Source: Gimesia fumaroli (GTDB lineage: Bacteria; Planctomycetota; Planctomycetia; Planctomycetales; Planctomycetaceae). Taken from it: a stretch of DNA of 64,000 nucleotides. Positions 820-63,674 of the stretch are shown here, in pieces (position 1 is the first letter of the stretch; each line of letters opens with the position of its first letter). Below the pieces are notes generated by a model. That model saw only the letters and a program-made list of their open reading frames with translations, searched no databases and was not told the DNA's origin. Both the position numbers and the translations under genes were made by a program. The stretch spans positions 4,005,164-4,069,163 of the forward strand of contig NZ_CP037452.1 in NCBI RefSeq assembly GCF_007754425.1, given 5' to 3'.

Positions 820-3800
820 TCAATTATCATCTAGCAATACCGGACGTAACCAGCGCGTGATCTCATCCATACTCATTCCCTTGCGTTCGGCCAATGAAGC
901 CAGTTGGTCTTTATCAATTTTACCCGTATGGAAATACCGTGATTCCGGATAAGAGAAATACCAGCCGGAAACCGCAGCCGTCGGATACATGGCAAAATGC
1001 TCGGTCAACTCGACACCGATTTCACTCTCGGCATTCAACATCTCAAACAGAGTATCTTTCTCCGTATGGTCAGGGCACGCCGGATAACCGGGCGCTGGAC
1101 GGATGCCGCTATACTCTTCCTTGATTAAGGCTTCATTGTCCATTTCTTCCTCGGGCACATAGCCCCAGTACTCTTTTCTGACCCGTTTATGCAGATGCTC
1201 GGCAAACGCTTCTGCCAGCCGATCGGCGAGTGCTTTGACCATGATGCTGTTATAGTCGTCGTGCTCCGCTTCGTAAGCTTTCGCAAGTTCTTCGGCACCG
1301 ATCCCCGCAGTCACCACAAACCCGCCAATATAATCGATCTTTCCGCTCTCTTTGGGAGCAATAAAATCGGCTAGCGACATCAGCGGCTTCTCTTCCTGTC
1401 CCCGCTTGCGAATCTGCTGTCGAATGTGATGTAGTCGAGCGATTACCTTCGTTCGGCTCGTATCCTCATAAACTTCGATATCATCCCCATTCACACGATT
1501 CGCAGGCCAGAAGCCAATCACCGCCCGCGCCGTCAGCAGTTTTTCCTCGATGATTTTCTTGAGCATCGTTTGTGCATTGTCGTACAACTCACGAGCCGCT
1601 TCACCGATGATATCATCTTCCAGAATCTTGGGATATTTTCCGACCAGATCCCAGCTGATAAAGAAGGGAGTCCAGTCAATATAATCGACCAGCTTTTCCA
1701 GCGGATATTGATCGAGCACTTTCGTACCGGTAAAAGTGGGCGCGGGAGGCGTGTAACTCTCCCAGTCAATCTGCACCCCCTGCTTCACCGCGTCCTCGTA
1801 AGGCACGGGAGTTCCCTGTGGTTTGCGATTGGCAACACGTTCGCGTACGGTCACATACTCTTCTTTAATATTTGCGACATAAGCATCATGCTGTTCATCC
1901 GAAATCAACGCAGCCGCAACTCCCACGGCACGCGAGGCATCGGGCACATAAACCACCTGATTCCGCTTGTACTGCGGTTCAATTTTGACTGCCGTATGTG
2001 CCTTGGATGTCGTTGCCCCCCCGATCATTAACGGCAGATTCATCTCCAGACGTTCCATTTCACTGGCGACGGTGACCATCTCATCCAATGAAGGGGTAAT
2101 CAATCCCGACAGACCAATCACATCACATTGCTTTTCAAGAGCCGTCTTTAAAATCGTCTCGCAGGGAACCATCACTCCCAGATCAATCACTTCAAAATTG
2201 TTACACTGCAAGACGACGCCGACAATATTTTTCCCGATATCGTGCACGTCCCCTTTTACGGTCGCCATCAGAATCCGGCCGTTGGGTTTGCTCGCTTCTG
2301 TCTTTTCTTCTTCGATATAGGGTTGCAGATACGCGACTGCCTGTTTCATGACTCGTGCTGATTTTACGACCTGAGGCAGGAACATTTTTCCCGCACCAAA
2401 CAGGTCGCCGACGACATTCATCCCATCCATTAACGGGCCTTCGATCACATCCAGCGGTCGGTTCATTTCCTGCCGTGCCAGCTCGGCGTCTTCGACAATA
2501 TAGGTCGAGATCCCCTTCACCAAAGCGTGCTCGATTCGCTTCGTCACCGGTAATTCCCGCCAAGACAAGTCTTCTGTCTTCCCTGCTCCTGCTTTCCCGT
2601 CGCCACGATACCGTTCGGCAATCTCCAGTAACGCCTCGGTTCCCTCCGGTGTCCGATTCAGAATGACATCTTCAACTTTGTCTTTCAATTCCGCAGGCAG
2701 ATCATCATAGACGGCCAACTGGCTGGCATTCACAATCCCCATATTCATGCCGGCGCGAATCGCATGATACAGAAACACCGAATGAATGGCCTCGCGGACT
2801 GCATTATTCCCGCGAAACGAAAACGAGACGTTCGAGACACCTCCGGATACACTCACGTAAGGCAGGTTCTGTCGAATCCAGGCAGTCGCTTCAATAAAAT
2901 CAACCGCATAGTTGTTATGCTCGTCGATACCCGTTGCCACAGCAAAGATGTTCGGATCGAAGATAATATCCTGCGGTGCAAAATCTAATTTCTCCACCAG
3001 CAGTCGATACGATCGCTCGCAGATTTCAGTCTTGCGCTGTTTGGTATCAGCCTGTCCGTCCTCATCAAAGGCCATCACTACGACAGCGGCGCCGTACAGT
3101 TGACACAGACGAGCCTTTTCTAAAAATTCAGCCTCGCCCTCTTTCAAGCTGATCGAGTTGACGATTGGCTTCCCTTGAATGCACTTGAGACCTGCTTCGA
3201 TAACGTCCCATTTCGAAGAGTCTACCATTACGGGCACGCGGGCAATATCGGGTTCTGTCGCGACCAGATTCAGGAACGTCGTCATCGCGGCAATGGCATC
3301 CAACATGCCTTCATCCATATTGACGTCCATGATATCAGCGCCATTTTGCACCTGCTGTAAGGCCACTTCCAGTGCGGTATCATACTTATCTTCTTTTATC
3401 AGCCGCTTGAATCGGGCAGAACCGGTAACGTTACAACGTTCGCCCACATTGACAAACAGGCTGTCTTTCGTGATATTCAACGGCTCCAGCCCGGAGAGAC
3501 GTAACGCCGGTTCGATCTCTGGCACTTTACGGGGGGAATGCTGTTCCATCGCCTGTGAAATGGCTTTGATATGTGCCGGTGTTGTACCGCAACAGCCGCC
3601 TAGAATATTCAGAAAGCCGCTACTGGCAAATTCATCGACAATCACCGCCATTTCAGCAGCACTTTGGTCGTATTCACCAAATTCATTTGGCAGGCCAGCA
3701 TTCGGATGAGCCGATACATAGGTATCGGCCACGCGAGACATTTCTTTTACATACTGTCGCAGCTCCTCCGCGCCTAACGCACAATTCAATCCGATCGAAA

Positions 3801-4530
3801 AGGGTCTGGCGTGAGAGAGCGAATTCCAGAACGCCTCTGTCGTCTGTCCCGAAAGCGTTCGCCCCGAAGCATCCGTAATGGTTCCGGAAATCATGATCGG
3901 CAGTTCGATCTTTTCTCGCTGAAAATAGGTCCGCACGGCAAACACTGCCGCTTTGGCATTCAGTGTATCGAAGATCGTCTCAATCAGGATCAGATCAGAG
4001 CCCCCTTTGACCAGCCCGTCGATTGACTCCAGATAATTCTCAACCAGTTCATCATAGGTGACATTCCGCGCTCCCGGGTCATTTACATCCGGTGAAATCG
4101 AACAGGTGCGGCTTGTGGGCCCTAAAACCCCTGCCACCCAGCGCGGTTTGTCGGGAGTCTTCTGCGTGATTTCATCGGCGGCGGCACGTGCCAGTTGGGC
4201 AGAAGCCACGTTCAGTTCGTAAACCAGCGATTCCATTTCATAATCGCTTTGGGACAAACGTGTTCCGTTGAACGTGTTCGTCTCGATGATATCCGCCCCC
4301 GCTTCCAGGTACTCACGATGGATTTCCTGGATGATCTGGGGTTGAGTTAATGAGAGCAGGTCGTTGTTGCCGGCAATATCCATATGGTAGTCAGCAAAAC
4401 GTTCTCCCCGGTAATCCGCTTCTTTGAGCTTATGGTTCTGAATCATCGTCCCCATCGCCCCGTCCAGAATCAGTATCCGTTCCTGAATGGCAGTGTAGAG
4501 AGCTTCAATTCGAGCGGAGCGATCAGACAT
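820..4530 (-). CDS. metH: Cobalamin-dependent methionine synthase
   Basis: Catalyses methyl transfer from 5-methyltetrahydrofolate to homocysteine through enzyme-bound methylcobalamin, in the cytoplasm. All four MetH modules are present in 1236 residues. The homocysteine domain covers about 1-340, with zinc ligands C250 (GLNCALG) and C313/C314 (GGCCGTTP). The pterin domain covers about 355-625 ([13 protein letters not shown]). The cap and B12 domain covers about 650-895, with the cobalt-ligand histidine in [11 protein letters not shown]. The AdoMet activation domain covers about 910-1236, including [12 protein letters not shown]. The ATG at 4530 gives the expected MetH N-terminus with [10 protein letters not shown] near residue 22. 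The 224-base upstream region shows no recognisable B12 or SAM riboswitch. Nothing is truncated. Confidence 0.98.
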
Positions 4531-4754: not shown

Positions 4755-7700
4755 TTAGGAGGCTGGCTGATTCAAATCCTTTGCCGGCTCGGCACCAATC
4801 ATTCCTACCAGTGCTTGCAGGTAATCTGGTGAAGAAACATGCGCCAGTTGGTCCTCAATCCATTTTCGCCGCTCGGCAACCTTGAGTCGCTTCACTTCCC
4901 GATCATAACCAGGATGGACCGTAAACTGATCGAGATATTCCAAGTGGCGTTTGAGCAACGCAACTTCCCGTTCCTGCCGCGCAACCAGACGATCCTGATA
5001 CCACTGGCTCTTCAGCAGCGACTCCGGTGTAAACAGAGATCGGACTTCGTCATCATGGATCGTATGTCCCTGCCAGTTCCCGTGTGCCATAATCGAAAGA
5101 ATCGCCTGTAATGGGGGGCAGGCTTCTTCGTAAGAACCATCTGCAAAGTACTGTAGCGCCACGCGCTGCTGTGCCTCGGCGATATGCTGAATACCGTCGA
5201 CAAACGATTCCAGATCCTGCTTTTCCGGCTGGAGAATGGTCTCGTCGAATACCGAGGCCGGATTATCAAACACACGACCAAAGAAACGATGCAGGAACTG
5301 GTACGTAATGCGGTAGCCGAGACGACTTGCCGGAATCTGTTTTCCGTTATGCTCGAAGTCCTTAAGTGGTTCCAGCAGGCCTTCCTCAATTAAATACTTC
5401 GGGTCGCGTTCCTGCGGTTGCATCCGGCACCAGATCTCTGGAATCAACAGACTGACATCATGGTCAACACGCACATTCGGTCCAATATGACCGGCGGCCG
5501 ACGAAAAACCAGCATAGCCGGTGAGAATAAACCCGACCAGCGCGCTATTCAAGTCGGCAGCGGGACGCAGCGCATTGAAGGGGCCTTTGGTCAACGCCCC
5601 TTCACTGCCCGCCCCTGTTGTCGAAGGGCTTTTCCCGGTCAGCGAGCAAATGAAATCCATGAACAGCTCCGGCAGTTCCTGATAATGGATCGGGGAATAT
5701 ACGGCCAGACTGCGAATTCCTTTTTCCCGATCGGGGGGATTGTTACGTCGTCCCAGCATCACGGCATTCACAGGGTTGTGCACCGGTTCATCTGCAGGCA
5801 CCGCACGAAACAGGCGTGTTGCCATTTTGGTGATGTAAGTATGAAATGGTTTGACCAGATCGGGGCGAATTTGAAGATAGCGAGGGTTTTTCGTCGGCTT
5901 ACCATCAATCTGTCGCGGGTTCGCAGAACAGACTACGTAACTGCTGTTGGACTTTTCAGCGGCATGCAGCATCTCCTGCATCGGTGGACTAAAGGCATCA
6001 AAATCAACCACGTATTTGCTCATCTCACGCACTTGCTCAATCGAGAGTGGCTCAAAGTTAGAGATGAAATTACCAGGTCGGGATAGATCAGCTTCCGTCT
6101 GCTTGTCCAGACCTCGAACGATGGCATCATCAGGACGCTGGAATAAACGATACTCACTATTAATCACAAATTTACAACTGGGATTGTTCTCGCCTTCTGC
6201 CAGATAACTCAACATACGAGACGGTACTACAACCGAAGCACTGATGTCATCTTCGGTCTGGATTTTCATCGCAGCGATAAAGTCCTGCCGCACCTTGAAT
6301 GTCCGCCAGCCCAGCAGGGAAAACAGACCGACCCGTAAATAGGTACCCACCAGTTTCCGCTCGCGGTATTTTAATTCATGCCCGTGTGTGCCGTTCACAA
6401 TATCAACGCCAAAATGGCTGGCCCAGTCTTCTCCCCAACTGGTCCAATAAATACGTTTAATAATGAAGACCAACGCGCGAATGTGATCGGGAATCTTATT
6501 CAGCCACTCATTGAATTCCGGTGTATAAGCGGGAGAAGGAGTCAGCAATTTGATCACACTTCCCAGCGAACGATTCATGTCCAATACGCGCCGGCTTGGA
6601 CGAAGTTTGGGATCTCCATCCGACAAAGGTTCCAGCCAGCGATCCGAGTAGTCTTTCTCGATAATTTCACGCACGTATTCCATATCTTCTTTGTAATTGG
6701 AAACGAACACGGGTCCATACAACATGTAATCCAGCAGCGACTTACTGATTTCGCTCTTACCACCACCGGAAACCGTACAAGGCTTGTGACAAAAGATTCC
6801 TTCGCCCGTGGTTCCCACAATTCGCCAGGAAGGGGCAGCCGGATGCTTTTCCATCCGCAGATGATAACCGGAAGGCGCCATATATACGCGGCCCGGCAGC
6901 AGCGGAATGGAATGCGTTTGTCCGCCCCTGGTCCAGCGAATACATTGCTCCGGCAGACTGGCGTAGGCATCCTCGGGAATGTAAATCAAATCAGGATAAA
7001 CTCGGTCGATTCCGTATCCTTCCGGCTGACCGTCAATGTGGTCGCCATAGTCGCGCATCACATCGTCAAACGTACGACCATTGTATTTCACACTATTGAC
7101 CTGGAAGCCTTCACCCAGGTTATAGCTCGGATAGGCAATCGCGCCGCCCGCATGCTCTTCTTCCGCATTACCATACAAATTGGCAGAGTAGCTGATTTGA
7201 GTCTTCACTTCTTTTTTGCAATAACCAAAATAGTTATCAGCAATGAGTGTGACGATCACGCCCTCATCAGTCCGGCAGGTCATTTTGAATGCCAGGCCAT
7301 CGTTATAGAGTTCATCTTCCGCCTTCCAGCACATGCTGTCACGTTGCTGACGTTCGGTCGCATCATCCCAGTGTGGTAAGCCAAGTTCTTTTTTTGTAAA
7401 CGTGGTTAAGTGTGGTGCCAGAATGACCGCGCCGGTATGCCCGGTCCAATGCATCACATCCAGACCGGCATCATTTTCGGGTACAAACGGATCACCGGCA
7501 TTTCCAAAAATGGATTCGACAAAGTCCAGATTACTCACCAGGGTTCCAGGTGCGAAGAAACGAACTTCCATCCGCTTCTCCGGCGTGACACCTTTGACTT
7601 CAGGGCACACAATCGGCCGCAACATCAGGGAAGCCCAGCCGGATGCGGGCTCTTCCTGTTTCGATGTAAAAGGAAATAATTTCATTTCCTGAGGAGGCTG

Positions 7701-8306
7701 CATCGCATGCTGAAACATTTTCACAAAAACCGCACGTGGGACCGCTCGCTTATCTCCCGCAATCGGCAAGCCCCCTTCGGTAACGTGAAATGTGCCGACG
7801 GTCGTGCGTCGATCATGTTTCGGATTATGCAGTACGCCGTTTTTCACCCGATACGACTGCACCAGATCACTGACAAATACATCATCCTCGACGGGAAGGG
7901 AAAGTTCCCGCGCCAGTCCGAACCGGTCCAGTACCAGCGTTTTACCGGGTAATTTTAATTCCTGAGATCCGTCAATATCACTAAAATGGGATTGCAGAAA
8001 TCCTTCAATCCGCTTGTCCGCAGGACAACGGTGATTCGCCAGTAAACGATTTTTTTGTCGATGATTTTCCAGCAACCCTTTCGCTATATCAGCGAAGGTG
8101 CGGTCTGCGTCTGTCAGAGCAGCCGGATAACCATTGGCGATTAACTGCAGATTCAGATACCGTAATATTTCATCACGATCTTCGTTACAGGTGGCGTTCC
8201 CATTCTCATCAAGTCCCAGTGCCTGACGATATTGCTCGTCTGACTTATCTGAACGGTCCTTGAGTGACCTGGGAGGAGAAAGCCTGGGTACTTCGCTATT
8301 TAACAT
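4755..8306 (-). CDS. Large PEPCK-like protein, possibly PPi-type phosphoenolpyruvate carboxykinase
   Basis: A soluble protein of 1183 residues without signal peptide or membrane segments. Two features recall phosphoenolpyruvate carboxykinase. First, a lysine pair K364-K365 ([13 protein letters not shown]) is followed exactly 20 residues later by H385 (EEEHAGG), the spacing of the metal-binding lysine and histidine of GTP-type PEPCK. Second, a P-loop-like [14 protein letters not shown] lies at about 510-523. The length fits the unusually long PPi-dependent PEPCKs (about 1130-1190 residues) known from Entamoeba and propionibacteria, which interconvert oxaloacetate and PEP using pyrophosphate. 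The assignment is inference from spacing, motif order and size. It stands alone, with 224 bases to metH downstream and 349 bases of non-coding DNA upstream. Otherwise it would be called a conserved hypothetical protein. Confidence 0.6.
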
Positions 8307-10294: not shown

Positions 10295-11629
10295 ATGATT
10301 CATGAAGAGTACGTGGAACGACTTGTTAATTTACTGGACCCTGCAGCAAATATTCTTTTCAACATGACCGTTGAAGAGGCAACCGAACGAGTCGGAAGTG
10401 GTTCTCCGGAACGAGTGCGAGAAATCGATGGGCAGTTCGCACTCGTCCACAAAGAGGGCACACGAATTCGCATGGCGCGGTCGATCGGTAGACCGATGCG
10501 TTTTTTCCTCGCCAAACGGGCAGAAGGCCCTTGCCTTGTCATCGCTGAGAGAATCGATGAGATCTATGAGTTCCTGAAAACTGAAGGACTCGACGACCAG
10601 TTTCATCCATCCTACACCAGAATGGTTCCCGCGCATTATATTCTTGAGCTGCAATTAATCGGCTGCCCCGATCCGAACCCGAAAACAACACGCTACTTCA
10701 CTCCTGAACGAAACAAACTGTCAACACAACTGGATGAAATCGGGAAAGAGTATATTGGCGCTGTCTCTCAAGAGATCAATAAATGGCTGGACACGATCCC
10801 CCGTATGGAGCCCATCGGCGTGCTCTTTTCCGGAGGAATTGACAGCGGTGCGATTTTCCTGTTGGTTTATCATGCACTGATCACGCGCAACGAATCACCA
10901 TCTCGTTTGAAAGCCTTTTCGCTTTCCATCAATGGTGAAGGGAGTGACTGTCGCCAGGCACAGCAATTTCTGGAACAGATGCAACTCGGCCTGTTCCTGG
11001 AGATACTGGAAGTTCCGCAAAGCAGCCTGGACTGTACAGAAACCATCAAAGTCCTTGAAGATTACAAACAGCTTGATGTCGAAGCCGCAACAATGGCACA
11101 TGCCTCGTGTAAAAAAATCAGAGGGCTGTATCCCCACTGGAAATATCTCATTGACGGCGACGGTGGAGATGAAAATCTGAAAGATTATCCCATTGAAGCC
11201 AATCCGGAATTAACGATTCGCAGTGTCCTGAATAATCTGATGCTCTACCAGGAAGGTTGGGGAGTCGAAGCAGTCAAACATTCTCTCACCTACTCCGGCG
11301 GCCAAAGCCGCGGTCATGTCAGAACTTATGCCCCCGCCCGCAGTCTTGGCTTTCAGGGGTTCAGTCCGTATGCATTACCAAACGTAATTGAAGTCGCCGA
11401 AGGAATTCCCTATATCGAACTGACTGGCTGGGACCATAAAAAACTCTACGCCCTCAAGGGGGATATTGTCTGCCGAGGCGTGAAACAAATTACAGGACTG
11501 TCGATGCCCGTTTATCCTAAACGACGCTTTCAGGAAGGCAGCCTTAATGACCAATCCTTCAATACCGTTTTTTCCGATTCGGAAAATGTGTACCGACAAA
11601 CGTTGCTCTCACTGTATCAGTCATCGTAA
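10295..11629 (+). CDS. Asparagine-synthase-like ATP-PPi family protein lacking glutaminase cysteine
   Basis: A 444-residue protein with an asparagine-synthase-type adenylating domain. The PPi-loop SGGIDS lies at 179-184 and a second nucleotide or Asp-site motif DGDGGDE lies near 289, matching GEGADE of AsnB. Residues 1-140 look like a shrunken class II glutamine amidotransferase fold (DGQFALVHKEGTRIRMARS). The catalytic Cys2 is absent, since the protein begins MIHEEY. It therefore probably uses free ammonia or another amine, or is a beta-lactam-synthetase-like amide or ring former. It is followed after 70 bases by a RaSEA-like radical SAM gene on the same strand, suggesting one pathway. The substrate is unknown. 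The start has only a weak ribosome site (TTAGGATT). Confidence 0.75.
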   Translation: MIHEEYVERLVNLLDPAANILFNMTVEEATERVGSGSPERVREIDGQFALVHKEGTRIRMARSIGRPMRFFLAKRAEGPCLVIAERIDEIYEFLKTEGLDDQFHPSYTRMVPAHYILELQLIGCPDPNPKTTRYFTPERNKLSTQLDEIGKEYIGAVSQEINKWLDTIPRMEPIGVLFSGGIDSGAIFLLVYHALITRNESPSRLKAFSLSINGEGSDCRQAQQFLEQMQLGLFLEILEVPQSSLDCTETIKVLEDYKQLDVEAATMAHASCKKIRGLYPHWKYLIDGDGGDENLKDYPIEANPELTIRSVLNNLMLYQEGWGVEAVKHSLTYSGGQSRGHVRTYAPARSLGFQGFSPYALPNVIEVAEGIPYIELTGWDHKKLYALKGDIVCRGVKQITGLSMPVYPKRRFQEGSLNDQSFNTVFSDSENVYRQTLLSLYQSS

Positions 11630-11631
11630 AC

Positions 11632-11649
11632 ATTCTGCAGCAGCAGAAT
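11632..11649 (+). other. Small hairpin between the AsnB-like and radical SAM genes
   Basis: ATTCTGC and GCAGAAT form a perfect 7-bp stem around a 4-base loop, two bases after the stop codon. No T-run follows, so it is not a clear terminator. It could stabilise mRNA or adjust expression between the two genes. Confidence 0.35.
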
Positions 11650-11699
11650 CATGAAAACACGGGAGATGCTAATTTATCAGACGCAATGAGGCCGACGAA

Positions 11700-12626
11700 A
11701 TGAACCCCGCGATGCCAATGATCGATGACCATCAAATTCTCGCGGCTCGTCCCGCTAAAAACCAGGTTTCGCCCGAACTGCCTTATGCTTTTTTAAACGA
11801 AACAGAATATTCTGCGGCAGGCATTCTCACAGACGTCTCAACCATTTTTCTCACAAATCGTGAGTGCCCCTTTCATTGCCTGATGTGTGACCTTTGGAAA
11901 AACACAACAGAAGAAACGCTCAAACCAGGTCTGATTCCGCATCAGATTGAACATGCCCTTTATCGCCTTCCCCCTGCCAGCCAGATCAAGTTATATAACA
12001 GCGGAAATTTTTTTGATCCGAAAGCCATTCCCCAGCAAGACCTCCCGGCGATTGCTGAGCTGACACGCCACTTCGAACGAGTCATTGTTGAAAATCATCC
12101 GTTACTCTGCAATCAGACCTGCACCGAGTTTCAGCAAATGATCGCTGGACAGCTGGAGGTCGCCTTGGGATTGGAAACAATCCACGAAGAAGTTTTAAAG
12201 TCACTCAATAAAAAAATGACGCTGGATGACTTCGCCAGAGCGGTCGAATTTCTTCAAAGCCACGCCATTTCAGTCAGAGCGTTCATTCTGTTGAAACCAC
12301 CATTCATGGAAGAACAGGCTGGTGTGGAATGGGCCATCAAATCTGCAGAATATGCTTTTTCGCTGGGGGTCGAATGCTGTTCCCTCATTCCCACACGGTC
12401 CGGCAATGGACTTCTGGAACAATTGCAAGAGCGCGAACAGTTTTCTCCACCACAACTCGCTTCGATTGAAACGACTCTCGCAGCCTGTTTGAACCTGAAA
12501 CGAGGCAGAGTCTTCATGGACCTTTGGGACCTGGAACAACAGTACCAAACTGAATCAAATCTACATGCCAGACTGCAACGGCTGCGTCAGATGAATCTCA
12601 CGCAGAAAGTTCCAGAGATGAGATAA
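11700..12626 (+). CDS. Radical SAM protein related to the archaeosine enzyme RaSEA (TIGR01210-like)
   Basis: A cytoplasmic radical SAM enzyme of 308 residues. The 4Fe-4S motif is C56-x3-C60-x2-C63 (RECPFHCLMC). Several stretches follow the RaSEA/TIGR01210 pattern in order: YNSGNFFDPKAIP, QLEVALGLETIHEEVL, LNKKMTLDDFARAVEFL, LLKPPFMEE and IPTRSGNGLLEQL. In archaea RaSEA releases the lysine side chain to form the amidine of archaeosine in tRNA. That a planctomycete homologue does the same is not established. ATG 11700 has GAGG 11 bases upstream. It follows the AsnB-like gene by 70 bases and converges on ligA 10 bases away. Alternatives are another C-N or C-C cleavage in a small-molecule pathway. 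Confidence 0.8.
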   Translation: MNPAMPMIDDHQILAARPAKNQVSPELPYAFLNETEYSAAGILTDVSTIFLTNRECPFHCLMCDLWKNTTEETLKPGLIPHQIEHALYRLPPASQIKLYNSGNFFDPKAIPQQDLPAIAELTRHFERVIVENHPLLCNQTCTEFQQMIAGQLEVALGLETIHEEVLKSLNKKMTLDDFARAVEFLQSHAISVRAFILLKPPFMEEQAGVEWAIKSAEYAFSLGVECCSLIPTRSGNGLLEQLQEREQFSPPQLASIETTLAACLNLKRGRVFMDLWDLEQQYQTESNLHARLQRLRQMNLTQKVPEMR

Positions 12627-56424: not shown

Positions 56425-57532
56425 GATCGCCTTTGACACCTGTAAACGTTTCAGAATTGATGAATCGACCGATTGTCCGTAATCTGACGATACAACTGTT
56501 TTGTTCGGTTATACCATTCGATGAACCTGAGCGATTCCAGTGAAATCAGCCCTGCGATTACTACTATCGCTATAGTAATCAGCAAAACCCACACAACTTA
56601 ACGCCCGGAGCCTGACAGGCAGGATGAAAGCATCCTGCACATATGAACTCGCCCTTCTAAACCAGACACGGATTTCAACTCGATCCATGCAGGATTCGGC
56701 AGTAACGTTTGGCAGGCATCATCACCGCATCTCTCATTGGTCAAGCCCCCTGCTCGCTATATTATGTTCCGGAAACGGTTGAAGGCGAGACGCCAGACTA
56801 GCGATACGCACGGAACAGAAATGGTGCAGTGCTTGATTCCAGTTTCAAACGTAAATCGCATTTCACTTCGCGATCTTCAGCTTGACAGGTTCCCGAAGCC
56901 GGCGAAACTTTGCGGAGATAGCGTCGCGTGCGCGAGGCTATGATTTCTCTTTTTCTCGCATACATTGTGTTTCATTGAACTTAGCGAAATCAGCAGTCAT
57001 AAGGCTCTTTTTTACAATCGAGTGTTTTCTAACATGTCAGACAAATGTTTCAACCAACATATACAGAGTATACTCGATATCACCGGCTCGCGCCAGTTCA
57101 CTCTGAGCAGTACGCAAAAAAGGGGCCATCGAAAGACTTCGTAGATTCTTCGCTGACAAATCACACTTATTCAATGACCATTCAAGTGCGGACCATAAGC
57201 GTTCGTCAGAGTACACACCCTGAAGTCAGCATACCAGCACTTGACCGTCGGACGCAATTGAGGAAACTTGCGAAACAATATCATTGATCACTCACACGGC
57301 GCGTTTCGCTTCTTCAAGCCCCCACCATAAAAAATGAAGATTCCGATTCACTATTCTGAAAAGAGCAATCAATGTCTGACGTTAGCTGCGATTTCGTTTT
57401 CCAAACCAAAGACATTGATCAATCCAGAATCAGCAATTCCCACCGAGATTTACCTTGTATGCTCTGATAGCTTTGATTACGATAAATGGAGATCTGACAG
57501 CGTTCACCCAACCCCACCTGCCAGCGTCACTT
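56425..57532. other. Long divergent intergenic region
   Basis: This is 1108 bases between the TolC-like gene (minus) and the PSCyt1 gene (plus). Several open frames of 60-90 codons occur in different frames; none has a ribosome site with a family signature. No IS end, tRNA or strong hairpin was recognised. It must hold two divergent promoters and may hide a decayed gene. Confidence 0.4.
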
Positions 57533-60406
57533 ATGATCTCCACACGATTTACCTTGCCTCTGTTTGTTGCTGTTTTCGTTTCGTTCCCGATTGGAGCGAA
57601 CCAAGCGGCTGAAAAACCACTCCTCTTCGAAGCGGATATCCAACCGGTTCTCTCTGCCAAATGTGGTAAATGCCACAGTGAGAAGGTTCGCAAAGGGGGG
57701 CTGGATCTCTCTACGGTCGCCGGCGTCCATCGCGGGGGAGAGTCAGGCGAATCCTCCATCGCTGACACTGTGGATGACAGCCTGCTCTGGATTCTGATCG
57801 ACGCGGGTGATATGCCGCCGGAAGGGCAGCCTCAGCTCACCAAAAAAGAGCGCAAACTCATCCAAACCTGGCTCTCCACAGGAGCGAAGTCAGCCAAGCC
57901 ATACCAACCCGAGGAAAAACAGCTCACACAACACGATGTACTGCCAATCATGTTGCTCCGCTGTACCACCTGCCATGGTGCTCGCCTCAAACGAGGGGGC
58001 CTGGATCTCAGAACTCCAGCCAGTATGCAAAAAGGAGGCGAACACGGCCCTGCCTTTATCGCAGGTAAACCAGCTGAAAGCCTGATGATTCAACGGATCG
58101 AAAGCCATGCCTGCCCCCCGCAAGAACAACTGCTGAAGTTTTTTGTCAAACGTCCTCCGCCCTCAGAAGTTGATACCCTGCGACAATGGATCGCCGCCGA
58201 TGCCCCTGTTGACAACATCGCCCCTGATGTTCCCGGCACGGAACCAGACCCACTCGTCACAGAAGAAGACCGCCAGCACTGGGCCTTTCAACCACCTGAA
58301 GCGCCGCTGGGAGTTTCCTCAATCGATGACCTGATCCTCAAGAAGCTTCAAGCACACAACCTCAACTTCTCCCCGGAAGCCGATCGAGACACACTCATCC
58401 GTCGCGTTTATCTGGATCTGACCGGCATCCCACCGACACTCAAAGAATGGAAACGCTGGCATAACACAGATGATCCAAACTGGTATGCCGCGATGATTGA
58501 TCATCTACTCGCTTCCCCCCGTTATGGCGAACGCTGGGGACGGTATTGGCTGGACATCGCCGGTTACGCCGACTCTGAAGGAGGGGTCTCCTCTGATCCG
58601 TTGCGCGAGGTCGCCTGGAAATATCGTGACTATGTTATTGATGCGTTCAATACCGATAAGCCTTATGACCGCTTTCTACTGGAACAGATCGCCGGTGATG
58701 AACTGATTGACTATGAAAACGCTCCTGCCACCACCGAAGAAATGGTACAGAATCTGGTCGCCACCGGTTTCCTCCGCATGGGTATTGACCAGACCGGTTC
58801 CCGCACAATGAATTTTGTGCCGGAACGCCTGGGTGTCGTCAACGACGCCATTAACGTCATGGGTTCCGGCGTTATGGGGCTGACACTGGAATGTGCCCGC
58901 TGCCACTCGCACAAATACGATCCACTACCACACCGTGATTATTATCGCTTCAAAGCGATTTTCCAGGGTGCTCTGGATGAGTACGACTGGCTGACTTTCA
59001 AAAACCGTTCGCTGGAATTAGCCACACCGGAACAGCAGAGCCGTGTCAAACAGATCAACCCCCTGCTCAATAAAAGACTGAAAAAGCTCGAATCAGCTCA
59101 CAAAAAAGCGATTGCAGCTTTGCAAGTCGCGATGCTGCGGCAGTTTTATCCGAAACAATCTGCTGCTGAACAGCAGGAGACCCTCCGCGCTTTAAAGATT
59201 GCCGATAACACGCGCACACAACGTCAACGGATTCTGGTCGAGAAATTACGAATCGCAGAAACCATGCCCGAATCGAAATTCTCAGAATCGGTCAAGCAGG
59301 CACAACAAAATGTAATTTCCATCGAAAAGCAGAAGACTGAAATTAAACAGCAGATGGAACCCCCGCTTACAATCCGTGCCCTCTGGGACCGGGGCGAACC
59401 TTCGCCCACTTACATCCTGCTGCGAGGCGAACATGATCAACCGGGCAAACTTGTAGGGCCCGGAGTCCCCTCTGTTCTGACCGACGGACGTACCCCCTTC
59501 TCGGTGCAACCACCGTTTCCGAAGGGAACTCCCAAAACCGGCCGCCGCCTGGCATTGGCGCGCTGGTTAACAAAGAAAGATCATCCCCTCACAGCACGTG
59601 TAATCGTCAATCGCATCTGGTATCACCACTTCGGCACCGGACTGGTAAAAACACTCGAAAATTTCGGTGTGAAAGGTGAACGTCCTTCGCATCCGGAACT
59701 GCTCGACTGGCTGGCTGTCAAGTTTGTCGAACAGGGCTGGCGCATCAAAGACATGCATCACCTGATGCTGAATTCCCGCACTTACAGGCAATCCAGCACG
59801 ATTACTCCTGAGATACAACAACACGATCCTCAGAATCGCCTGCTCTCTCACATGCCACTCCGCAGAATGAACGCCGAAGCGCTACGCGACTCAATTCTGG
59901 CGGTCTCAGGCAAGCTCGATCTCACCCCCGGCGGCCCTCCAGATTCGGTTACCGTCGACAGAAACGGCCTCGTCAGCGCCAACATCACCAGTAACGAAGG
60001 CTGGCGACGCAGTGTCTACCTGCAGTACCGTCGTACTGAAATTCCCACCATGTTGGATACCTTCGATTACCCTGAAATGGGGCCGAACTGTGTTTCGCGG
60101 ACCATCTCCACGGTTTCACCTCAGTCACTGATGCTGTTGAACAATGAACGTGTTCATTCTTTGTCCCGCGCGTTCGCCTCACGCGTCCGCAATATGCTCG
60201 CAGACCAGAACAAGGATGATTTGAAGACACAGATCGCACTCGTATATCAGCTGGCACTGAATCGCTTACCAACTGCAGAAGAAAAGCAGTTGGGACAGGA
60301 AACCTTACAGGAATTGAAATCGCTCTGGAAAGATAATCCGCAAGCAGCTTTGGATACGTATTGCCATACTATCTTAAACTCTGCCGCGTTTTTGTATATT
60401 GATTGA
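57533..60406 (+). CDS. Planctomycete cytochrome-type protein PSCyt1-DUF1549-DUF1553
   Basis: Exported protein of 957 residues. A signal peptide (RFTLPLFVAVFVSFPIGANQA) is followed by two haem-c-type motifs, CGKCH (KCGKCHSEKVRKGGLDLS) and CTTCH (LRCTTCHGARLKRGGLDLR), in repeated PSCyt1 domains. DUF1549 comes next (LIRRVYLDLTGIPPT, YGERWGRYWLDIAGYADSEG, RFLLEQIAGDEL) and DUF1553 at the C-terminus (LARWLTKKDHPLTARVIVNR, MPLRRMNAEALRDSILAVSGKLD in two blocks). A coiled segment lies around 500-610. Such proteins pair with DUF1501 proteins, as here. Redox or carbohydrate catabolism is proposed in the literature only loosely. ATG 57533 places the signal peptide correctly. Confidence 0.92.
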   Translation: MISTRFTLPLFVAVFVSFPIGANQAAEKPLLFEADIQPVLSAKCGKCHSEKVRKGGLDLSTVAGVHRGGESGESSIADTVDDSLLWILIDAGDMPPEGQPQLTKKERKLIQTWLSTGAKSAKPYQPEEKQLTQHDVLPIMLLRCTTCHGARLKRGGLDLRTPASMQKGGEHGPAFIAGKPAESLMIQRIESHACPPQEQLLKFFVKRPPPSEVDTLRQWIAADAPVDNIAPDVPGTEPDPLVTEEDRQHWAFQPPEAPLGVSSIDDLILKKLQAHNLNFSPEADRDTLIRRVYLDLTGIPPTLKEWKRWHNTDDPNWYAAMIDHLLASPRYGERWGRYWLDIAGYADSEGGVSSDPLREVAWKYRDYVIDAFNTDKPYDRFLLEQIAGDELIDYENAPATTEEMVQNLVATGFLRMGIDQTGSRTMNFVPERLGVVNDAINVMGSGVMGLTLECARCHSHKYDPLPHRDYYRFKAIFQGALDEYDWLTFKNRSLELATPEQQSRVKQINPLLNKRLKKLESAHKKAIAALQVAMLRQFYPKQSAAEQQETLRALKIADNTRTQRQRILVEKLRIAETMPESKFSESVKQAQQNVISIEKQKTEIKQQMEPPLTIRALWDRGEPSPTYILLRGEHDQPGKLVGPGVPSVLTDGRTPFSVQPPFPKGTPKTGRRLALARWLTKKDHPLTARVIVNRIWYHHFGTGLVKTLENFGVKGERPSHPELLDWLAVKFVEQGWRIKDMHHLMLNSRTYRQSSTITPEIQQHDPQNRLLSHMPLRRMNAEALRDSILAVSGKLDLTPGGPPDSVTVDRNGLVSANITSNEGWRRSVYLQYRRTEIPTMLDTFDYPEMGPNCVSRTISTVSPQSLMLLNNERVHSLSRAFASRVRNMLADQNKDDLKTQIALVYQLALNRLPTAEEKQLGQETLQELKSLWKDNPQAALDTYCHTILNSAAFLYID

Positions 60407-60411
60407 CGCTT

Positions 60412-61875
60412 ATGAATCACCAGCCCGAACAACCTCACACTCGTCGCGACTTCTTTGCCCGTACCAGCGATGGCGTCATGGGCGCTGCTCTGACGCACCT
60501 GTTATGCCAGGACTTTTTTGGTGGAACCCAGGCACTGGCGAATGATGCCCCGCATCAACCACAACAGTTTGATCTCAAACCCAAACAACCACACCACACT
60601 CCGAAAGCCACTTCCGTCATTCATCTGTTTATGAATGGCGGGCCGAGCCAGATGGATCTGTTCGATCCTAAACCGGTTCTGAACAAAATGGACGGCAAGC
60701 CGTACCCGGGCAACATTGAAGACCTGGGGAATTCCAACACCACCAGTATCGGCGAAATGCTGGGCGGACAGTACAAATTCGCCTGTCATGGAGAATCCGG
60801 AATGTGGATGGCAGATGTTCTGCCCCACACTGCGAAGATGGCCGATGAACTCTGCCTGATCAACTCCATGTGGACCGATCATCCAAACCACGACAATGCC
60901 TTGTATAAAATTCACAGCGGTCGCCTCTTCATGGGCTACCCCACGATTGGATCCTGGACGGTCTATGGACTGGGAACCGAAAACCAGAACCTGCCCGCCT
61001 ATGTCGTACTCACAGATCCTCTCGGTGCCCCCAAAAACGGTACACGCAACTGGACATCCGGCTTTTTGCCCCCGACATATCAGGGCACGCGACTCCGCCC
61101 CACGGGCTCGCCGATCCTGAATCTCAAGCCGCAATACGAGCAACCGGCGGCTGTCACCGAGTCTGCACGCAAACTGCTCAATCAACTGGACGGAATCCAC
61201 CGCCAGAAACGCCCCCACTATCCTCTGCTTGATGCTCGCATCGAATCGTACAGTCTTGCAGCGCGCATGCAGATGTCGGCCACCGAAGCCCTTGATTTAT
61301 CCAGCGAGACACAACACACCCTCACCGATTATGGCATCGGTGACAAAGAGACCGAATCTTACGGCAAACGCTGTCTGCTTGCCCGCAGACTGGTCGAACG
61401 GGGAGTCCGTTTCGTGCAGATCTTCCTGGAAGAACAACCCTGGGACAGCCATGCGGATCTCTCCGCCAATCACCGCGCCATGTGTCAACGAACCGACAAG
61501 CCGGTCGCCGCACTGCTCCGCGATCTCAAACAGCGCGGACTGCTCGACTCCACACTCGTCATCTGGGGCGGCGAATTTGGTCGCACTCCCACTACGCAAA
61601 AATCCGCCAATGGTTTCTCAGGCCGCGACCATAACATGCAGGCCTTTACATCCTGGATGGCCGGAGGAGGTATTAAAGGGGGAACGACCTACGGTATCAC
61701 TGATGAATTCGGACACAGTGTCGTTGAAAACCCCGTCAGCGTACATGACTTCCATGCGACCATTCTCCACCAGTTGGGGCTGCATCACCAGGAACTATTC
61801 TATACCCGCAGTGGGCTGGAAGAGCGTCTGACTGGTGTCAATCCACCGCGCGTGGTTAAGGAGATCCTCAGTTGA
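60412..61875 (+). CDS. DUF1501 domain-containing exported protein
   Basis: Second complete DUF1501 protein, 487 residues, 5 bases after the PSCyt1 gene and so probably coupled to it. The twin-arginine leader is HTRRDFFARTSDGVMGAAL. Family marks are VIHLFMNGGPSQMDLFDPKP, IWGGEFGRTPTTQ, GRDHNMQAFTSWMAGGGIKGG and VHDFHATILHQLGL. ATG 60412 is preferred to an in-frame TTG at 60403. The C-terminal gene end overlaps the start of the next gene. Function is unknown; Tat export suggests that a folded cofactor-binding protein is moved out. Confidence 0.93.
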   Translation: MNHQPEQPHTRRDFFARTSDGVMGAALTHLLCQDFFGGTQALANDAPHQPQQFDLKPKQPHHTPKATSVIHLFMNGGPSQMDLFDPKPVLNKMDGKPYPGNIEDLGNSNTTSIGEMLGGQYKFACHGESGMWMADVLPHTAKMADELCLINSMWTDHPNHDNALYKIHSGRLFMGYPTIGSWTVYGLGTENQNLPAYVVLTDPLGAPKNGTRNWTSGFLPPTYQGTRLRPTGSPILNLKPQYEQPAAVTESARKLLNQLDGIHRQKRPHYPLLDARIESYSLAARMQMSATEALDLSSETQHTLTDYGIGDKETESYGKRCLLARRLVERGVRFVQIFLEEQPWDSHADLSANHRAMCQRTDKPVAALLRDLKQRGLLDSTLVIWGGEFGRTPTTQKSANGFSGRDHNMQAFTSWMAGGGIKGGTTYGITDEFGHSVVENPVSVHDFHATILHQLGLHHQELFYTRSGLEERLTGVNPPRVVKEILS

Positions 61876-63674
61876 ACAATCCGGACTGTGAAGTCAATCG
61901 ACGCAAGTTTCTGACAACAGCGACCACCGTCAGTCTGGCCACCACACTCGGTATTAATATCGCCCGATCAACTGAGAAGCACTCCTCCGATATCAAATTT
62001 ATCGACACGAATATCAGCCTGTTTCAATGGCCCTTTCGTCGACTTCCACTCGACAATACACAGACACTGATTTATAAACTGCGATCACTTGGCATCGAAC
62101 AAGCCTGGGCAGGCAGCTACGAGGGAATCCTGCATCGAGATATTTCAACCGTCAATCAGCGACTGGCTGAGGAATGCAAGCGTTTTCCACAACTGGTTCC
62201 CATCGGCTCGATCAACCCCACACTTCCCGACTGGGTACACGATCTGCAAGAATGCTTTCACAAATATCAAATGCAGGGAATCCGACTGCACCCCAACTAC
62301 CACGGCTACACACTCGAAGATCCTCGCTTACTGAATCTCTTAAAACAAGTCGCTGAAGAACGTCGCTTCGTACAGTTAGCCGCAACTCTGGAAGATACCC
62401 GTACCCAACATCCCTCGGTGCGGGCAGCCGATGTCGATCTCAAACCACTGCCGGAGTTGGCTGAGAAGGTCCCCGGTCTCAAGCTTCAGATTCTCAACGC
62501 AAAACCCCGTCCTGATCTGATCGACAAACTTAGTAACGTCCCGGGAATCTTCTTTGATACCGCTCGCGTCGAAAGCACCGATGGTGTTCCGGCTCTGATA
62601 CGACGTCTCCCCGAGGGACGTGTCATGTTCGGCTCACATGCACCGTTTTTAATTCCGGAAGCGGCTCTGGTACGTGTCTCTGAATCGTCAACCCTTGATG
62701 CAGCATCTCTGCATTCGGTTCTGTCAGACAATGCAGCTCAGTTTCTGTCCACGATTCACACTACCAAAAGTTCTCCACCAGAGATTAGAGTCAAAAGCCA
62801 CGATTCACAATATACGACGACCGCAAATACCCCCGCTGGTTTACCTTCCTCGCAACAGCTTGAGAAATACCGCATCTGGGATTCGTACTTCACTCCCTCC
62901 CATTCCCATCCGGGACGAGATGGTAGCAGCAGCCTGATCGCAGAAATTGAACGCGCCCTGCCCGCCATCAATACGGGAAAGTTTAAAAAGCTCTGTTATT
63001 TCCCCCACGTTGGCATCGGTACGACCAGTGATACAGAACTGGAACAAAAGCTGAAAACAGACCCGGAAGTCGTGATGCAACCGCTGAAACGCTGGCCCGA
63101 CCTGCTGATGGGAATGATTCAACTCAACGCCAACAATCTACGCGGCTCGCTGGACGCATTAAATCGCTGGTTACAGGACGGCCCAATGCGCGGCGTTTAT
63201 TTTCCGGGAGGCGGACCGGCAGCCCTCACCTGCACTCATCGCAATTTCGATCCCCTCATCGAGCGAATTTCGGAATTGAACGGCGTAATCATGCAACACA
63301 CCTGGTTTATCACCGGAGGAAAACGGAGCCCCGGAGGATCGACGCCGTCCGAACTCGCGGTGCTGGCACAACGATTCCCCCAGCAGAAATTCATCTGCGC
63401 CCATTCCGGCGGCGAATGGGAACGTGGCATACGTGCTGTGCGAGATTCAGAAAATATTCTTGTAGAAACTTCAGGCTTTGATCCCACCGCCGGCTTCATT
63501 GAAATGGCAGTTCGCGAACTTGGTGCGGAACGCATCATCTTCGGCAGCCATCTCCCCTCCCGTTCTCTGGGCACGGAATTATGCAAAGTCACTGCAGCGC
63601 AAATTTCGGAAGCAGATAAACGCCTGATTCTCGGCTCCAATTTCCGCAACCTGTTATCTCTTTCAGACGACTAA
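61872..63674 (+). CDS. Tandem amidohydrolase-2 (TIM-barrel) protein
   Basis: A 600-residue protein with two amidohydrolase-related domains. Domain 1 (about 35-295) shows IDTNISLFQWPF, GIRLHPNYHGYTLEDPR and GRVMFGSHAPFL. Domain 2 (about 330-595) shows WDSYFTPSHSHPGRDG, FICAHSGGEWERG, NILVETSGFD and ERIIFGSHLPSRS. Domain 1 lacks several metal-ligand histidines; domain 2 keeps more. An NRRKFLTTATTVSLATTLG leader indicates Tat export. TTG 61872 is the start: AAGGAG lies 9 bases upstream and the TTGA overlaps the DUF1501 stop, so the triad is translationally coupled. Amidohydrolase-2 proteins act as decarboxylases or hydrolases; the substrate is unknown. Confidence 0.9.
   Translation: MNNPDCEVNRRKFLTTATTVSLATTLGINIARSTEKHSSDIKFIDTNISLFQWPFRRLPLDNTQTLIYKLRSLGIEQAWAGSYEGILHRDISTVNQRLAEECKRFPQLVPIGSINPTLPDWVHDLQECFHKYQMQGIRLHPNYHGYTLEDPRLLNLLKQVAEERRFVQLAATLEDTRTQHPSVRAADVDLKPLPELAEKVPGLKLQILNAKPRPDLIDKLSNVPGIFFDTARVESTDGVPALIRRLPEGRVMFGSHAPFLIPEAALVRVSESSTLDAASLHSVLSDNAAQFLSTIHTTKSSPPEIRVKSHDSQYTTTANTPAGLPSSQQLEKYRIWDSYFTPSHSHPGRDGSSSLIAEIERALPAINTGKFKKLCYFPHVGIGTTSDTELEQKLKTDPEVVMQPLKRWPDLLMGMIQLNANNLRGSLDALNRWLQDGPMRGVYFPGGGPAALTCTHRNFDPLIERISELNGVIMQHTWFITGGKRSPGGSTPSELAVLAQRFPQQKFICAHSGGEWERGIRAVRDSENILVETSGFDPTAGFIEMAVRELGAERIIFGSHLPSRSLGTELCKVTAAQISEADKRLILGSNFRNLLSLSDD

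Follow-up and report, generated by a model that had tools for sequence, protein, structure and literature searches.

What would a bacterium do with an asparagine-synthetase-like enzyme encoded next to a radical SAM protein that resembles the archaeosine enzyme RaSEA? The question arises from a stretch of 64,000 nucleotides (hereafter the window) that spans positions 4005164-4069163 of the 7.70-Mb single-contig genome of Gimesia fumaroli. An original prediction held that the two proteins could install or trim an amine or amidine group, on tRNA or on a small molecule, in planctomycetes. We find, with high confidence, that both genes belong to a conserved three-enzyme system, and we propose a mechanism for it with low to moderate confidence.

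Other genes of the window include an ordinary cobalamin-dependent methionine synthase with its complete domain set (MetH, 820-4530), a genus-conserved 1183-aa protein that matches neither Pfam nor NCBIfam at E 1e-4 (4755-8306), and an operon-like row of a PSCyt1/PSCyt2/PSD1 gene, a DUF1501 gene and an amidohydrolase-like gene (57455-63674), which is a common planctomycete arrangement. DUF1501 and LigA genes beside the pair were considered as partners and rejected, being genus-local or scattered.

Two adjacent enzyme genes and their nearest relatives

The spacing of 70 bases between the two genes was confirmed (Table 1), and gaps of 0-200 bp are found in most pairs of the planctomycete family. 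Using gene sets of this family obtained by six-frame searches with fixed E-value limits, we found asnB and the radical SAM gene to be co-directional and at most 1.1 kb apart in 39 of the 42 same-contig pairs tabulated. When the AsnB alignment was searched against GTDB as a whole, at least 556 relatives were returned; the same co-directional arrangement recurs in 38 of the 80 loci kept for locus analysis, Bacteroidota included. This adjacency is far above chance, in line with what the original prediction anticipated for related genomes.

Table 1. Features of the asnB-radical SAM pair and of the large companion protein (window positions, except for the last row)
Feature	Position	Strand	Basis or remark
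AsnB-like amide synthetase gene, 444 aa, trio gene 1	10295..11629	+	ORF, profile matches, AF2
Codon 2 = Ile; catalytic Cys in glutamine-hydrolysing AsnB	10298..10300	+	Cys in 0/53 relatives
PPi-loop SGGIDS, residues 179-184	10829..10846	+	S179, G180, G181, D183, S184 invariant
DGDGGDE motif, residues 287-293	11153..11173	+	Alignment of relatives
Lys409 in PKRRFQ	11519..11521	+	Invariant in 53/53
Intergenic gap asnB/radical SAM, 70 bp	11630..11699	+	ORF limits
RaSEA-like radical SAM gene, 308 aa, trio gene 2	11700..12626	+	ORF, TIGR01210 match, AF2
C56-x3-C60-x2-C63 [4Fe-4S] motif	11865..11888	+	Invariant; CX3CX2C pattern of RaSEA
C-terminal tail, residues 276-308, CxxC...C(x)C motif lost	12525..12623	+	Most relatives keep the motif
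~1200-aa protein, Gimesia copy	L213:7212-10925 (own genome ~358211-361924)		UnbV model not significant; C-terminal domain significant

The first protein belongs to the Asn_synthase superfamily (PF00733, 36.7 bits against a gathering cut-off of 21, E 5e-9), and both its PPi-loop and its DGDGGDE motif lie where the original prediction had placed them. The N-domain is short, and the reported loss of the glutaminase Cys2 extends to all 53 relatives compared. AsnB-like enzymes adenylate a carboxylate, and those without Cys2 take free ammonia or another amine as the nitrogen source. Besides the PPi-loop residues, E255, G290-E293, K409 and R411 are invariant in the alignment of these relatives; Lys409 presumably corresponds to the synthetase Lys that AsnB conserves close to its C-terminus.

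The AF2 model (pLDDT 83) has beta-lactam synthetase as its nearest PDB fold, followed by human and E. coli asparagine synthetase, and supports the assignment of a putative carboxylate-adenylating amide synthetase without glutaminase. A sequence search of the PDB with the family profile gave weak AsnB-type matches only. The two-domain fold (TM about 0.63) and the PPi-loop are common to beta-lactam synthetase, carbapenam synthetase and AsnB, the first of which also lacks the glutaminase Cys. Identity to these synthetases is nevertheless 14-16%, the N-domain is reduced, and the window family has invariant C-terminal blocks of its own (EDYK.LD, DGDGGDEN.KDYPI, ELTIRSVLNN and KHSL..GGQSRG).

The similarity of the synthetase domain to AsnB could also indicate ordinary amino-acid metabolism, with a diverged asparagine synthetase lying beside an unrelated radical SAM gene. 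We consider this barely conceivable: the asparagine synthetase B model TIGR01536 gives 33.8 bits against a cut-off of 267, Cys2 is missing, the conserved C-terminal blocks are unique to the family, and asnB is tightly co-inherited with two other enzymes (see below). A plasmid search with the AsnB-like query gave no match, and a search of viral contigs gave one distant match only.

For the radical SAM protein, the best NCBIfam model is TIGR01210 (RaSEA), at 111.5 bits (E 4.6e-32) compared to 24.9 bits for the next best. The kinship with RaSEA that was read from the sequence is thus significant, yet the score stays below the equivalog cut-off of 212.15 bits, as do those of three relatives (88-114 bits). 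The cysteine motif that had been noted is invariant in 28 relatives. In the fold comparison, the AF2 model (pLDDT 95) comes closest to Elp3 and pyruvate formate-lyase activating enzyme, with MiaB also among the nearest PDB folds, and a PDB sequence search with the radical SAM profile gave no match.

RaSEA converts preQ0-Lys to archaeosine after lysine transfer by ArcS (PMC11298593). The window protein shares the radical SAM core with RaSEA, is co-linear with it over most of the domain, and may share with the ArcS/RaSEA couple a two-step logic of amine transfer followed by N-C cleavage. It differs in being bacterial, in reaching half the membership score, and in having AsnB-like and halogenase-like partners in place of ArcS, together with an exported protein as companion. 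In agreement with the earlier remark that no tgt gene is nearby, the single Tgt-family gene of the genome lies ~0.68 Mb from the pair, whose neighbourhood is without archaeosine Tgt context.

Most members of the radical SAM family end in a tail with about four Cys (CxxC plus a terminal pair): at least three are present in 43 of the 53 relatives, a single Cys in one and none in nine. That the Cys tend to be kept or lost as a set suggests a metal site which some lineages have given up. The tails without Cys include all six own-genus sequences compared, the window protein among them.

RaSEA-like radical SAM genes also occur on plasmid pFRL3 of Streptomyces sp. FR1 (L274:13716-14831), where the TIGR01210 score of 172.6 bits exceeds that of the window protein, and on pFRL5 of Streptomyces sp. 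F8 (L275:9716-10831). On the plasmids, the radical SAM gene is the first in a series with P450, SHMT-like, GT9, carbamoyltransferase, GDSL and heptose-type genes, apparently a case of RaSEA-like chemistry in a natural-product cluster.

A third enzyme and the distribution of the trio

In other genera, the radical SAM gene is often followed directly on its 3' side by a gene for a ~510-aa FAD protein. The Gimesia copy is unlinked, ~0.27 Mb from the pair (G000:C1:4291395-4292855). Over the catalytic region this protein matches PltM (249 bits, E 8e-73) and CtcP (248 bits), with which it shares the FAD motif, HPRF.xGES and the catalytic Lys (Lys87, present in 53 of 53 sequences). PltM and CtcP halogenate phenolic rings.

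By its sequence match and catalytic Lys, we place the FAD protein as halogenase-like in the PltM/CtcP clade. It departs from these enzymes in the WxWxIP motif, of which WxW is kept while Pro is replaced by Arg in 43 of 53 sequences and retained in four, so that most trio members read WxWxLR; no polyketide pathway is nearby. Since the Pro is absent from nearly all of these proteins, the predicted halogenation may be wrong. The FAD protein also shows weak matches to QhpG, GoxB and LodB, flavoenzymes that modify peptides.

The three genes are found together across genomes. Among 170 genomes of the planctomycete family, asnB and the radical SAM gene are both present in 109, each without the other in 6 and 5, and both absent from 50. 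The corresponding numbers are 111, 4 and 3, and 52 for the FAD and radical SAM genes, and 109, 6 and 6, and 49 for asnB and the FAD gene (Fisher p <1e-28, shared ancestry ignored). A number of the genomes that break the pattern are incomplete. Co-occurrence extends to genomes in which the genes are unlinked, for example 4.3 Mb apart in one case (G148), and the distance matrices of the three enzyme families correlate at 0.69-0.81.

All three genes are present in 29 of the 80 loci kept, and 25 of these 29 have the order asnB, radical SAM, FAD on one strand, in Planctomycetota as well as Bacteroidota. According to the record names, the Bacteroidota among the 80 are Dyadobacter luticola, Parafilimonas terrae, MAGs of Chitinophagaceae and Cytophagales, and Roseithermus. 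The two genes of the original prediction do form a conserved functional pair, but one that is part of a larger unit, a trio with a PltM/CtcP-type flavoenzyme, and one whose range is wider than the planctomycetes. The original prediction could not take in the third gene or the exported partner described below, as both lie outside the window in the Gimesia genome.

The trio is carried by 7 of 197 Chitinophagaceae genomes. Given this patchy distribution, it is probably a transferred trait. For such a trait, the identity of 62-65% between the AsnB-like proteins of Planctomycetota and Bacteroidota is striking and points to a single fixed product, a recent transfer or a combination of the two. When the surroundings of the trio were screened for additional conserved genes in the planctomycete family, the three genes alone recurred; we rejected the other clusters as antisense shadows or common planctomycete families such as DUF1501.

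A large companion protein, probably exported

At many loci a gene for a ~1200-aa protein adjoins the trio (in Bacteroidota) or asnB (in some planctomycetes). The protein comprises TPRs, FG-GAP repeats and a UnbV-type segment, and it ends in a conserved domain of ~400 aa for which Pfam has no model. We infer its export from these domain types and from an N-terminus with either a hydrophobic segment or a lipobox-like start.

In the planctomycete family the ~1200-aa protein is present in 112 of the 115 asnB-positive genomes. Another 17 genomes have it without asnB, indicating that it can exist without the trio, and 38 have neither. In Chitinophagaceae all 7 trio-positive genomes have it, compared to 0 of 37 without the trio (p 2.6e-8, ancestry ignored), and outside the planctomycete family it is present in each of the 16 trio-positive genomes tested. 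Taken by itself, a UnbV domain predicts the trio only weakly in Chitinophagaceae (7 of 7 compared to 19 of 37, p 0.017). The strong predictor of the trio is the ~400-aa C-terminal domain, UnbV domains as such being commoner.

The ~1200-aa protein persists in trio-lacking genomes (G150, G157 and G162, for example). Among the family genomes with the exported protein and without the trio, we found no RaSEA-like radical SAM gene; the sole match, of 30 bits in G329, is weak and belongs to another family.

The ~1200-aa protein is often adjoined by a ~600-aa FG-GAP/UnbV protein (Gimesia copy at L201:2439-4349), whose planctomycete versions have an apparent N-terminal membrane anchor on inspection. 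In Bacteroidota the gene that follows the ~600-aa gene encodes an RnfD/NqrB-like membrane protein, and in some cases an MFS transporter gene comes after it as well. The Chitinophagaceae pair of ~600-aa and RnfD/NqrB-like genes (L196:3171-5860, L267, L268, L269 and L270) accompanies the ~1200-aa protein also at loci distant from the trio.

With the ASPIC/UnbV FG-GAP (CRTAC1-family) proteins, the exported partners have in common FG-GAP repeats and, mostly, UnbV domains. The ~1200-aa partner adds to these the TPRs and the conserved C-terminal domain.

RNA, small molecule, peptide or protein as the target

The companion bears directly on the idea of RNA modification, in which the AsnB-like and radical SAM enzymes would put an amide or amidine on a base of tRNA or another RNA, in the manner of ArcS and RaSEA. 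RaSEA is indeed the best model for the radical SAM protein, and the tRNA enzymes Elp3 and MiaB are among its nearest solved folds. We nevertheless judge RNA modification very improbable. The score lies under the RaSEA cut-off, the Tgt gene is far off, and RaSEA-like proteins are known from the natural-product-like clusters of Streptomyces plasmids. Moreover, a tRNA mark does not fit the exported partner and the flavoenzyme as constant companions, nor the patchy presence of the trio, and these findings oppose the tRNA substrate of the original prediction. Because the trio nearly always accompanies a large exported protein, it probably builds something that the surface protein carries or uses.

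As the best explanation we propose that the trio is a cytoplasmic route that tailors a small aromatic compound used by surface propeller proteins, a reading that is possible, if somewhat short of probable. The AsnB-like synthetase would adenylate a small, probably aromatic, carboxylate and join it to an amine without a glutaminase of its own. If the amine donor were an amino acid, the radical SAM enzyme could then cleave the N-C bond to leave a primary amide, following the ArcS/RaSEA logic, and the PltM/CtcP-type flavoenzyme would halogenate or oxidise the ring. After export, the product would be bound or used by proteins at the surface, in a module made up of the ~1200-aa TPR/FG-GAP/UnbV-type protein and the ~600-aa membrane-anchored or secreted UnbV protein, plus the RnfD/NqrB-like membrane protein in Bacteroidota. 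While the gene content, conservation, co-occurrence, linkage, active-site residues and predicted folds of the trio are established, the substrate class, the order of steps, the chemistry and the link to the surface module are what we infer from them.

An amidating and halogenating or oxidising route is suggested by the known chemistries of the families and by the precedent of ammosamide, in which AsnB-type amidation (a proposed amidase step) and flavin halogenation belong to one small-molecule pathway (PMC12715798). There, the flavin halogenase Amm3 and the putative asparagine-synthetase-type amidase Amm20 tailor the same molecule. The pathway described there differs from the trio in using a peptide scaffold with PEARLs and many more genes, and the passages considered mention neither a RaSEA-like enzyme nor a propeller partner. 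No scaffold-making gene is linked to the trio. The MFS transporter beside several Bacteroidota trio loci, seen in a few related Chitinophagaceae only, is in keeping with a small-molecule product.

AsnB-like enzymes and flavin halogenases are known from RiPP pathways, in which radical SAM enzymes also occur, and the trio might accordingly act on an unlinked precursor peptide. This appears improbable: a leader-binding domain was not seen, and a search of 600-700 bp around each trio gene in the loci examined gave no small ORF that is conserved in the sense direction, which disfavours a linked precursor.

The main rival to small-molecule tailoring is protein modification, in which the trio would modify the exported propeller/UnbV proteins before secretion, giving a protein-derived cofactor, a halogenated residue or a cross-link. 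Possible models are anSME acting on sulfatases and QhpG on quinohemoproteins. This rival would explain why, in both phyla, the trio hardly ever occurs without the ~1200-aa protein and why the gene of that protein can lie directly beside it, and it is consistent with the weak matches of the FAD protein to QhpG, GoxB and LodB and with the peptide-modifying members among AsnB-like enzymes (PMC13060819). We still think it rather unlikely. The FAD protein is far closer to the small-molecule halogenases PltM and CtcP, and none of the three enzymes was found to have an RRE or SPASM-type domain. Comparing trio-positive with trio-negative sequences, we saw no candidate modified residue stand out: in neither the ~1200-aa nor the ~600-aa proteins does a residue conserved across trio-positive genomes disappear group-wise from trio-negative ones, and this result weakens the rival.

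A bolder form of protein modification, in which the AsnB-, RaSEA- and halogenase-like enzymes jointly install a novel protein-derived prosthetic group on the TPR/FG-GAP/UnbV surface proteins, seems doubtful to us. If true, the exported proteins would be a new redox or binding class with an enzymatically built cofactor.

Because we found no description of the trio combination in the open-access literature, where prior work may have escaped us, and because tests of membership in described families failed, we consider the system new. What appears to be novel is the combination of genes and its tie to an exported protein, the folds and superfamilies all being known; in that literature we found no described system that connects enzymes of these kinds with an exported propeller/UnbV protein. 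The novelty would shrink if a known product emerged for which the trio is a tailoring cassette of the ordinary kind.

One consequence is that a RaSEA-like match in a bacterium should not be taken as a sign of tRNA modification. The system also offers a short testable set of three genes in cultured hosts (Gimesia relatives, Dyadobacter luticola and Parafilimonas terrae), and through it the poorly understood bacterial ASPIC/UnbV FG-GAP proteins gain candidate enzymatic partners.
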